Shown: in pieces, positions 23,135 through 25,178 of the stretch
Numbering within the stretch: position 1 is the stretch's first letter
Layout: every line of letters begins with the position of its first letter
From: Cryomorphaceae bacterium 1068
GTDB lineage: Bacteria > Bacteroidota > Bacteroidia > Flavobacteriales_D > Cryomorphaceae
Direction of reading: 5' to 3'
Length of the DNA stretch: 64,000 nucleotides
Assembly: GCA_027214385.1 (NCBI GenBank)
Contig: JAPVXR010000012.1
Span: 62,001-126,000, forward strand
The notes under the pieces: generated by a model
Databases searched by the model: none
What the model saw: only the letters and a program-made list of their open reading frames with translations
What the model was told of the DNA's origin: nothing
Position numbers and translations under genes: made by a program

Positions 23135-23270
23135 AACTACTCTGAATTTCCCCGAAGTTAAACTTGGAAGGAAGTTGTGCGATAGGTTTTAGGCTGCAGT
23201 TATCAACGACCTTTGTTAGGAATTTCTGTTTTCGTTCAACCACATGATTCTCTGCACCTGTATACATGTA

Positions 23271-23278
23271 TATATTTG
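23271..23278 (+). promoter_or_regulatory. Putative -7 box TATATTTG 5 nt before an ATG
   Basis: Exact TAnnTTTG match ending 5 nt before the ATG at 23284. Transcription would begin at or next to the start codon, predicting a leaderless mRNA. Confidence 0.45.
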
Positions 23279-23283
23279 TTCTC

Positions 23284-23508
23284 ATGTCTGAGAAATCGAA
23301 TAGAGCGAAGTTTTACATCATTCCATGGGCCCTGAGTGCTGCTTTTCTCATCCGAGCCATGATACTTCGCGATAGCGCGGCGACTTATGCTACGGATAAT
23401 CTGAGTATTTGGCAATCGACTTCTTTTTACTTTGTGCTCTCTTCAGTTGGTTTCATTTTGGGGCTCTATTTTCTCACACGGAAAGGTGGGAAATCAGAAT
23501 CAGATTAA
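23284..23508 (+). CDS. Small two-helix membrane protein of unknown function
   Basis: 74 aa from ATG 23284 (an upstream ATG at 23266 overlaps the promoter box, so it is less likely). Two membrane helices at about 10-28 (YIIPWALSAAFLIRAMIL) and 44-64 (STSFYFVLSSVGFILGLYFL), with a basic C-terminus. No known family recognised. It precedes the Pmp3-like gene by 30 nt on the same strand and both may be transcribed together. Confidence 0.55.
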   Translation: MSEKSNRAKFYIIPWALSAAFLIRAMILRDSAATYATDNLSIWQSTSFYFVLSSVGFILGLYFLTRKGGKSESD

Positions 23509-23751: not shown

Positions 23752-23855
23752 TATCGGTCTGAGAACCGATAACATGAAATATCGCCTCTAGAACCGATAT
23801 TTGGTATTATCGGCTTTAGAGCCGATAAATTAGATTATCTGCTGAGAAGCCGATA
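23752..23855 (+). promoter_or_regulatory. Four tandem 20-bp palindromic operators, 28-bp period, upstream of the SatD-like gene
   Basis: Four imperfect inverted repeats: TATCGGTCTGAGAACCGATA (23752-23771), TATCGCCTCTAGAACCGATA (23780-23799), TATCGGCTTTAGAGCCGATA (23808-23827) and TATCTGCTGAGAAGCCGATA (23836-23855). Starts are exactly 28 bp apart. The three 8-nt spacers differ, so it is the 20-mers that are conserved. Site 3 is the best dyad (8-bp arms). Site 4 overlaps TATATTCG (23854-23861), a one-mismatch -7 box 4 nt before the ATG at 23866. This suggests binding by a dimeric repressor, plausibly the HTH product of the gene itself. Confidence 0.85.
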
Positions 23856-23865
23856 TATTCGTGAT

Positions 23866-24465
23866 ATGATTGCAATCATCACAGGAGATATTATAAACTC
23901 CACCGAAGACGATTCGACTCAATGGCTGTCGCTCCTTAAGAAGGTTCTGAATCGCTATGGGAAAAGTCCCGAACGATGGGAGATTTTCAGAGGAGACAGT
24001 TTTCAGTTGGAGGTTGAACCCAAAAATGCCTTGCTCACAGCCTTTCATATCAAGGCGTGTATCAAGCAAACGGGTAGCAGAGATGTCAGGATGGCCATTG
24101 GCATTGGTGAGGCCACCCACAAGGCAGCGCGCATTTCAGAATCCAATGGTTCGGCCTACGTACGATCGGGAGAAAGCTTCGAGGAATTGAAAAAACAAAC
24201 CCTTGCCATTCGCACAGAGAACGAAGACATTGATGAAACCATCAACCTTATGTTGCAACTGGCTCTGCTCATCGCAGATAATTGGAGCTCGGCGGTGGCG
24301 ACAATAGTCAATGCATCCATCGAGAACCCCGACAAGCCGCAAAAAGAACTCGCGAAGCTTTTGAATAAATCTCAAAGTAGTGTGAGTGAAGCCATGTCGC
24401 GCGGAGGATATGGTGAGATGATGAAAGTGCATCAATATTATTCCAAACGAATCGATAGGCTATGA
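23866..24465 (+). CDS. SatD family protein with C-terminal helix-turn-helix
   Basis: 199 aa. The N-terminal domain (1-115) has MIAIITGDIINS, FRGDSFQLEV (41-50) and RMAIGIGEA (75-83), a pattern seen in SatD-type proteins and reminiscent of class III cyclase-like folds (Asp8, Gly-Asp at 43-44). A helical linker follows. The C-terminus holds a helix-turn-helix, ELAKLLNKSQSSVSEAMSRGG (about 161-181). This is a likely DNA-binding regulator whose N-terminal domain may sense or bind a nucleotide; that ligand is inference. It starts 10 bp after a four-site operator array and ends overlapping the DUF3307 gene by 4 nt (ATGA). Confidence 0.8.
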   Translation: MIAIITGDIINSTEDDSTQWLSLLKKVLNRYGKSPERWEIFRGDSFQLEVEPKNALLTAFHIKACIKQTGSRDVRMAIGIGEATHKAARISESNGSAYVRSGESFEELKKQTLAIRTENEDIDETINLMLQLALLIADNWSSAVATIVNASIENPDKPQKELAKLLNKSQSSVSEAMSRGGYGEMMKVHQYYSKRIDRL

Positions 24466-25178
24466 CTCTCCTCTTTATAAAAATGCTTTTGGCCCATGTC
24501 TTGGGAGATTTTGTTTTTCAGCCAAAGGGGTGGGTAGAGCATAAGCTAAAACGGCGGCATAAATCCAAGTATCTATACTTCCATATACTGATTCACCTGG
24601 CCGCCCTATTAGTCGTATTTCGTTTTGACTTCAGTTATTGGCCTGTCTTTGTGGTTGTCCCGATCAGTCATCTCGTTATCGATTTGATTAAAATAAACCT
24701 AAATAAAAAGGTGAATATCCGTAGGCTGTTTGTGTCTGATCAACTCGCTCATATCGGGGTGATTTTGGCCCTGACATTCTATTATTTTCCTGATTTTTCA
24801 ATTTCACAAGAACTGTTTTCTGAGGGAGCTCTTCTTCTATTGTTGTGTCTAATTGTTCTCACTTCCGTGGGATCAATACTTATACAGGTGTTGATGAGTC
24901 GATGGGTAGTTGCCGAGGACAAAGAAAATCAGTCGCTTCCTGCAGCAGGAAAGTACATTGGCATTTTAGAGCGACTCTTTATATTCGTTTTTGTGATACT
25001 AAATCAATGGTCAGCCATCGGATTTTTAATCACTGCAAAATCCGTTTTTCGGTTTGGCGATCTGTCTCGGGCTAAGGACCGAAAACTAACCGAGTATATC
25101 CTCATCGGGACACTTCTCAGTTTTGGCTTAGCAATTCTGACGGGGTTGGTATTCAACCGATTTTATGAAGGACTTTAA
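24462..25178 (+). CDS. DUF3307 domain membrane protein
   Basis: 238 aa. The N-terminus matches the DUF3307 family: LLAHVLGDFVFQPKGW, then HKSKYLYFHILIHL, with conserved His and Asp in the first helices. About six or seven membrane helices in total. Function is unknown. It is translationally coupled to the SatD-like regulator (ATGA overlap), a pairing I have seen elsewhere, so the regulator probably controls this membrane protein. It ends 3 nt before the convergent phosphatase gene. Confidence 0.82.
   Translation: MTLLFIKMLLAHVLGDFVFQPKGWVEHKLKRRHKSKYLYFHILIHLAALLVVFRFDFSYWPVFVVVPISHLVIDLIKINLNKKVNIRRLFVSDQLAHIGVILALTFYYFPDFSISQELFSEGALLLLLCLIVLTSVGSILIQVLMSRWVVAEDKENQSLPAAGKYIGILERLFIFVFVILNQWSAIGFLITAKSVFRFGDLSRAKDRKLTEYILIGTLLSFGLAILTGLVFNRFYEGL

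Follow-up and report, generated by a model that had tools for sequence, protein, structure and literature searches.

The 64,000-nucleotide stretch of the Cryomorphaceae bacterium 1068 genome analysed here (the window) carries a two-gene operon that is preceded by an array of evenly spaced palindromes. The first gene, satD (23866-24465, plus strand, with its ATG at 23866), encodes a protein with a C-terminal HTH that matches PF16264 at 37.5 bits against a cut-off of 29, which places it in the SatD family. The second gene (24462-25178, plus strand) overlaps satD by 4 bp and encodes a membrane protein, the partner, in which a PF11750 (DUF3307) domain at residues 4-122 (99.3 bits, cut-off 23) is followed by a C-terminal module. 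Upstream of the array lies a small gene (23266-23508) with a sub-threshold match to DUF2304 (18.1 bits, cut-off 25.5). The start of satD itself coincides with a perfect 14-bp palindrome, ATGATTGCAATCAT (23866-23879), which is absent from two other loci (L010 and L011) and is probably a product of chance.

Four 20-bp dyads, to which no strand is assigned, stand in front of satD with a start-to-start step of exactly 28 bp, as the initial annotation had described. Those at 23752-23771 (TATCGGTCTGAGAACCGATA) and 23808-23827 (TATCGGCTTTAGAGCCGATA) fit the pattern TATCGG-N8-CCGATA without mismatch, and those at 23780-23799 (TATCGCCTCTAGAACCGATA) and 23836-23855 (TATCTGCTGAGAAGCCGATA) fit it with one mismatch each. 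The half-sites TATCGG and CCGATA start every 14 bp in alternating orientation, so that the 8-bp gap within a dyad is the same as the gap between dyads. TAnnTTTG is the −7 promoter consensus of Bacteroidota, and a box one base removed from it, TATATTCG (23854-23861, plus strand), shares 2 bp with the last dyad; this overlap, and the position of the ATG shortly downstream, had likewise been read correctly. Because the −7-like box sits so near the ATG, the satD mRNA could be leaderless. The 8-nt spacers differ from one another, in keeping with the view that the array is preserved as a set of sites and not as a repeated stretch of DNA, and a simple tandem repeat is ruled out by shuffles, by coding controls and by the other promoters of the window.

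The four dyads are the sole places in the 64-kb window with at most one mismatch to TATCGG-N8-CCGATA; when up to three mismatches are allowed there are 27 matches, against 18.2 expected. A scan upstream of 52 window genes (at least 150 aa each) gave 28 or 29 bp as the best period for satD alone, whose score of 90.3 compares with 59.5 for the next best score that beats its own shuffles. Forty simple shuffles were also exceeded by two further window genes, whose periods are 33 and 22 bp. The genome-wide search for further targets that had been proposed at the outset finds intact tandem dyads at satD alone: in the 4.3-Mb genome the tandem-dyad pattern is matched without mismatch only by the satD array (three overlapping matches), one other place has two mismatches and the others listed have three. 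At a tolerance of up to three mismatches the pattern has 30 matches in the genome and its reverse has 14, and no second intact tandem array was found by this pattern scan. Base composition alone was kept in the shuffles used for the 52-gene window control, the count of TAnnTTTG and the plasmid and viral arrays described below, and dinucleotides were kept in those of the 168-locus scan, the plain palindrome scan and the half-site information scan.

The array was sought at 168 satD loci, comprising the window, four family relatives, two named genomes, 85 loci from a PF16264 search, five plasmid loci and 71 loci from two further searches. The distribution of satD is patchy, with matches in 79 of 395 genomes of the phylum in the PF16264 search; the two further searches gave matches in 52 of 395 and 67 of 244 genomes, and matches already in the PF16264 set were left out. 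Also left out were one SatD fragment from the PF16264 search (G208), a SatD-like sequence (G358) and four HTH-only matches from the first further search, and five weak or partial SatD-like sequences (G202, G750, G789, G802 and G772) and seven HTH-only matches from the second. At each locus the 220 bp before the start codon were scanned for three dyads at periods of 20 to 40 bp, each arrangement being scored by the similarity of its six half-sites.

The dyads recur upstream of other satD genes, where the initial annotation had suggested that they be looked for: the best period is 28 or 29 bp in 148 of the 168 loci (28 in 68, 29 in 80), which makes 29 bp at least as common as 28 bp. The mean z over shuffles is 4.42 at 28 bp and 4.22 at 29 bp, compared with no more than 0.76 at every other period, and 134 loci score above all 40 of their dinucleotide shuffles, 131 of them at 28 or 29 bp. 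The choice between the two periods differs by subfamily: in subfamily A (the RGDSFQ type, n=124) the best period is 28 bp in 63 loci and 29 bp in 46, and in subfamily B (the TLGDEFQ type, n=44) it is 28 bp in five and 29 bp in 34. Two other scores give the same pair of periods. An earlier, noisier scan for plain palindromes at 92 loci, in which a locus was counted if it had a unique best period and at most three of 60 shuffles reached its score, gave 28 bp in 14 loci, 29 in 22, 21 in four, 20 in one and 25 in one; a half-site information score at 97 loci (at most one of 50 shuffles) gave 28 bp in 35, 29 in 45, 27 in one and 31 in one. Counting against an operator model are the 20 loci at which neither 28 nor 29 bp is best, including three at which another period (27, 30 or 31) beats all 40 shuffles, as well as nine of the 148 fitting loci at which more than two of 40 shuffles reach the score.

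Palindromes of this kind might arise by chance in AT-rich promoters, and single dyads are indeed common (127 matches with at most one mismatch, against 89 for the reversed pattern). Such an origin would not confine 131 of 134 significant arrays to two adjacent periods. In coding DNA inside satD, 28 or 29 bp is best in only seven of the 168 loci, and none of the seven coding segments that beat 20 shuffles does so at either period. Together with the 52-gene promoter control of the window, this coding control refutes chance palindromes, an explanation that can be given hardly any credence.

An overlap of the array with promoter-like boxes is also seen among relatives. With sites defined by at least 8 of 12 half-site bases matching, three sites are present in 72 of 99 subfamily-A loci and four in 14. 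In 38 of the 99 loci the start codon follows the centre of the last dyad by 17 or 18 bp. An exact TAnnTTTG occurs between the last dyad and the start codon in 34 of them, against 4.0 expected from shuffles, and most often begins within the outer arm of that dyad (21 occurrences). An operator at such a position normally blocks RNA polymerase, and since the array would occlude the −7 element, repression is the likeliest sign of regulation. Autoregulation is compatible with either sign, so SatD might bind the array and activate transcription, or only hold its own level constant; with the last dyad so close to the start codon, and often over a −7-like box, this alternative appears unlikely, if less so than the others weighed here.

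The protein that reads the sites can be sought in the half-sites themselves. Most subfamily-A half-sites consist of TAT followed by three variable bases, and particular versions of the second HTH helix of SatD go with particular bases. The window protein, with QSS..SE in this helix, faces TATCGG; among its subfamily-A relatives, QSN..SE is found with TATCTG, QNSVSG with TATCGT, most QPS or QAS with TATAG, QAAVSR with TATTAC, and both QSAVNQ and QSSVSQ with TATAAG, one QSAVNQ-type locus (L182) being without a clear site. Covariation was computed between 199 SatD columns and 11 half-site positions for 86 of the 109 subfamily-A arrays at 28 or 29 bp (effective number 65), retained if at most two of 40 shuffles reached their score, if their dyads were even and if TAT stood at offsets 10-8; subfamily B and sites that do not start with TAT (for example at L010, L092 and L101) fall outside this set. 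The axis of each array was picked by its match to TAT and not by offsets 7-5. After correction, mutual information is highest for residue 172 paired with offset 6 and for residue 175 paired with offset 5, and the best SatD columns for offsets 7, 6 and 5 are 175, 172 and 175. Both residues fall within the helix predicted at 170-179, they are S172 and E175 in the window protein, and the codons for recognition-helix residues 171-178 occupy 24376-24399 (plus strand), counted from the start codon at 23866.

High scores, if below those of the top pairs, are reached outside the helix as well (columns 23, 184 and 186 for offset 7, columns 184 and 27 for offset 6), which is what common descent would produce. 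Pairs of loci made independent by a tree of the SatD N-terminal domain alone were compared: base 6 differs in seven of eight pairs in which residue 172 differs and in five of 39 in which it is the same (p 9e-5), a contrast that is weaker when the pairs are matched for distance (7/8 against 1/8, p 0.01). The contrasts for 175-7, 175-5 and 171-7 run in the same direction and are non-significant after matching (p 0.11, 0.27 and 0.097, respectively). The stronger argument is that the recognition helix ranks above every other column, because all columns share one phylogeny. Where S172 is combined with Q175, the base at offset 6 is A, and therefore the code is not one of one residue to one base. Since no SatD column covaries with the variable half-site bases as well as recognition-helix residues 172 and 175 do, the array in front of satD is very probably bound by SatD itself. 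HTH proteins are numerous, and a different one could read the dyads, with satD merely the gene under its control. That the variable bases differ between relatives and follow the SatD recognition helix best of all SatD columns argues against such a reader, and a single intact place in the genome is ill-suited to a global regulator; we regard this explanation as improbable.

A structural model suggests what the remainder of SatD may be. An AlphaFold2 model built from an alignment of nine sequences (the window protein and related loci) reached a pLDDT of 90.8 and a pTM of 0.89, and predicts a babbab core followed by helices, including those of the HTH at 142-153, 159-166 and 170-179; a model from three sequences was poor (pLDDT 51.6), and its fold search was set aside. 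By sequence, the HTH gives weak matches in Pfam and among solved sequences, the best of the latter being HipB (E 0.008). In VIA-align the top ranks for the nine-sequence model are class III adenylyl/guanylyl cyclases, Cas10 (Cmr2) and GGDEF domains. The alignment with Rv1625c has a Z of 9.4 (rmsd 3.2, 133 residues), which ranks the listed folds and is only moderately above the best Z of 7-8 that is typical in the absence of a clear match. Foldseek agrees weakly, with one match at E <1e-3 that extends over 237 columns at 14 A rmsd.

Profile comparison points the same way. By hhalign, a SatD-A profile matches a profile of class III cyclase domains (27 of them, taken from related genomes) at 85% probability (E 6e-6 in a single comparison), against 0.15-0.24% for reversed profiles; the SatD-B profile matches the cyclases directly at only 7.4%, and SatD-A at 99.6%. 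The alignment pairs D8 with the first and G43-D44 with the second of the two metal-binding aspartates of the cyclases, and it ends before the region of the transition-state Asn and Arg. Of the 168 SatD proteins, 166 retain D8 and 167 retain D44. Judged by the predicted model and the profiles, the N-terminal domain is a putative class III cyclase/Cas10-palm fold with both metal aspartates kept, and it probably binds, or converts, a nucleotide. The Pfam mCpol family (PF18182) is absent among SatD matches with E <=1. In PADLOC-DB 2.0.0 SatD matches only Csa3, weakly (E 0.021, residues 104-178), the partner has no match, and there is no convincing match for the pair. The genome of the window (G000) has ten class III cyclase domain matches, and signalling of the cyclic-nucleotide type may therefore be rich in this bacterium.

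The locus had been described as a SatD-DUF3307 operon, a name that suits the window, where the partner does carry DUF3307, and not the family as a whole. A DUF3307-type partner stands beside SatD in 78 of 97 loci by a long-partner profile, and the frame that follows satD carries a motif of the C-terminal module at 114 of the 124 A loci and 36 of the 44 B loci. Partners of only 100-119 aa are encoded by 24 B-type operons, so DUF3307 is not part of every SatD partner. Six such short partners, encoded downstream of satD at L030, L031, L037, L042, L043 and L045, gave no Pfam match above the cut-off. A profile of the short partners matches the long ones at their C-terminal end (94.9%, E 4e-8) but not in the DUF3307 half (0.28%, against 0.37 and 0.97% for reversed controls), and for this reason the constant partner of SatD is the C-terminal membrane module, with PF11750 as an optional addition. 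This module comprises about 70 aa with the pattern ER..K..R..Y..G..S, and it stands alone in the 24 short B-type partners. It may be a minimal effector that annotation by DUF3307 has missed.

Operons of this type are also carried by plasmids and viral contigs. Nineteen such loci were collected, five of which are also among the 168 and which include three pairs of near-duplicates, a Segatella locus (Bacteroidota) and six viral contigs counted without host assignment. In a two-dyad scan the best period is 28 or 29 bp in 17 of the 19 (the two tie at L100), and in 16 of these 17 at most three of 60 simple shuffles reach the score; with three dyads the best period is 28 or 29 bp in 14 of the 19, three of the 14 being non-significant. 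The spacing is thus found with unrelated site sequences: the dyad is TTAGCC..GGCTAA in Vibrio lentus, TCAACC..GGTTGA in Enterobacter kobei, GGCCGG..CCGGCC and ACAGCC..GGTTGT in viral contigs, and TTCGCC..GGCGAA in two haloarchaeal plasmids. In the haloarchaeal plasmids (L233 and L237) the four dyads are grouped in two pairs, each with a 29-bp step, that are set apart by a longer gap. Upstream scans found no such array at the Sphingomonas and Pseudomonas fragi SatD loci, and the array at a Fusobacterium SatD locus was non-significant.

The surroundings of these operons vary. On tiny E. coli/Klebsiella plasmids (L100, NC_019077.1; L238, NZ_LR890364.1) the SatD-DUF3307 operon is nearly the sole cargo. 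The annotated genes of the 3.77-kb mobilizable E. coli plasmid are those for Rop, MobA and one small frame in addition to the SatD operon; five equally small Klebsiella plasmids encode an identical SatD, and a sixth, of 4.4 kb, encodes one with 94% identity. When E. coli genomes were searched with the pEC34A operon and its flanks by megablast, only partial matches were obtained, none covering more than 80% of the query; the matches listed cover 7% of it, its first part, which is without an annotated feature. The two genes alone gave no match in E. coli genomes by blastn. On a Sphingomonas plasmid (L253, NZ_CP048421.1, 63061-83624) the operon has a Pycsar-type cassette on one side and Toll/interleukin-receptor and ImmA/IrrE genes on the other; the neighbourhood looks like a defence island, and its own SatD copy is without the array. 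Viral contigs searched with a three-sequence SatD alignment yielded no SatD loci; an alignment of 39 sequences yielded six, and the partner alignment yielded eight loci. In a PHROGs scan of IMG/VR contigs, the operon of L244 follows tail-fibre and UmuC-like genes, that of L241 lies near a DUF6161 gene with an endolysin gene further downstream, and the neighbours of L243 had no phage match. The DUF3307 half of the partner matches PHROG 2470, a 'moron'. Neither window protein had a match among the phage records of INPHARED.

Iterons are evenly spaced sites that resemble the array, and the presence of the operon on small plasmids and viral contigs would be in line with an iteron- or parS-like site for partition, replication or recombination of a mobile element. 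The array of the window, however, occupies the promoter region of satD and of the membrane-protein gene that follows it in the operon, and arrays overlap promoter-like boxes in relatives, which makes such a role highly improbable. These comparisons draw on array searches upstream of satD genes and, for the genome of the window, on the whole genome.

The best explanation of the array is that it is the operator of a cooperative SatD autorepressor, probably nucleotide-responsive, that controls the membrane partner, and to this reading we assign a probability of roughly 0.77. The C-terminal HTH of SatD would bind each half-site, and SatD copies on neighbouring dyads would contact one another. It is proposed that such contact keeps the step fixed at 28 or 29 bp even as the sites change in sequence. 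The filled array would cover the −7 element and shut off the satD-partner operon, and the N-terminal domain would sense a nucleotide, a change of which would release or remodel the array so that the membrane partner could be made. The acid-tolerance wording published for SatD is unexplained by this operator model and counts against it.

The geometry of the array bears on how SatD units might be arranged. As was pointed out in the initial annotation, 28 bp is not a whole number of helical turns: at 10.5 bp per turn it amounts to 2.67 turns, and 29 bp to 2.76, so that successive dyads are rotated backwards by about a third or a quarter of a turn, a matter of arithmetic and not evidence of wrapping. 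In even-centred arrays of period 29 with the same axis, the half-sites are 14 bp apart within a dyad and 15 bp apart across the linker. That the spacing persists although the sites themselves differ greatly in sequence suggests that adjacent SatD units touch one another as they wind round the DNA. SatD columns 105, 128 and 151, which lie outside the recognition helix, track the period best, a signal confounded by phylogeny, and they are a candidate interface between dimers. It is unusual for an unphased grid to stay fixed while its sites drift, and to do so in bacteria, viral contigs and archaea alike; such constancy implies that the protein-protein geometry on DNA is conserved. On a more speculative reading, which is doubtful, SatD forms a nucleotide-gated superhelical filament on the 28/29-bp grid, its Cas10/cyclase-fold subunits set at a fixed angle at each 14-bp half-site, that silences a membrane effector until a nucleotide disturbance, for example by a phage, releases it. 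If this were true, the operon would be a widespread and unrecognised guard or defence module of bacteria, phages and archaea.

The name sat stands for secretion and acid tolerance in Streptococcus. The published passages on SatD (PF16264) cited here make no mention of an operator, a ligand, DNA binding or a partner. According to passages of a Tn-seq pangenome study, satD of S. pyogenes is an accessory gene (178/249) and nevertheless essential in the tested strains (PMC11323703); a passage of another study assigns a Fusobacterium SatD to acid resistance from the name of its family (PMC10326533), and in the relevant excerpt of a third DUF3307 appears once, in a row of a jumbo-phage table (PMC8504454). 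The plasmid and phage contexts, together with a gene that is accessory yet essential in S. pyogenes, suggest that the SatD operon is a guarded or defence-like module, and a regulator that restrains a harmful membrane partner would fit, with a role in defence or exclusion. In the literature searched, no paper joins SatD with DUF3307, and a search on cyclase, HTH, operator and palindrome gave no apparent report of such an operator array, judged by titles among the matches listed. An uncharacterised Pfam family is hereby turned into a testable system, for which the site, the putative reading residues, the spacing rule and the target operon are specified, and a cyclase/Cas10-like fold with metal aspartates on a predicted DNA-binding protein points to an unknown nucleotide signal.

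Several known systems share parts of this organization. Cooperative multi-site operators, NrdR boxes and iterons all present several spaced sites to one protein; unlike these, the SatD array has an unphased step of 28 or 29 bp that is held across phyla while the site sequence changes. Autoregulated toxin-antitoxin operons of the HipBA type resemble the SatD operon in that the regulator comes first, the partner second and palindromes lie at their own promoter, but SatD has a cyclase-like domain and an array fixed at 28/29 bp across phyla. In Panoptes systems the partner of mCpol is a two-helix membrane protein. SatD differs from mCpol in having an HTH and an operator array and in lacking a PF18182 match; both operons, as far as the published passages on Panoptes describe (PMC12657230, PMC12657218), pair a small protein of the Cas10/cyclase fold with a small membrane partner. 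Csa3, according to passages of its description (PMC8699464), also joins a nucleotide-sensing domain to a C-terminal HTH; it is a CARF and winged-HTH protein that responds to cyclic oligoadenylate, whereas the SatD domain is predicted to be of the cyclase/palm type and not CARF. Operator arrays and sensor-HTH proteins are therefore known kinds, and what is new is a fixed, unphased grid that extends across phyla and domains and that would be read by a protein of the cyclase/Cas10 fold.
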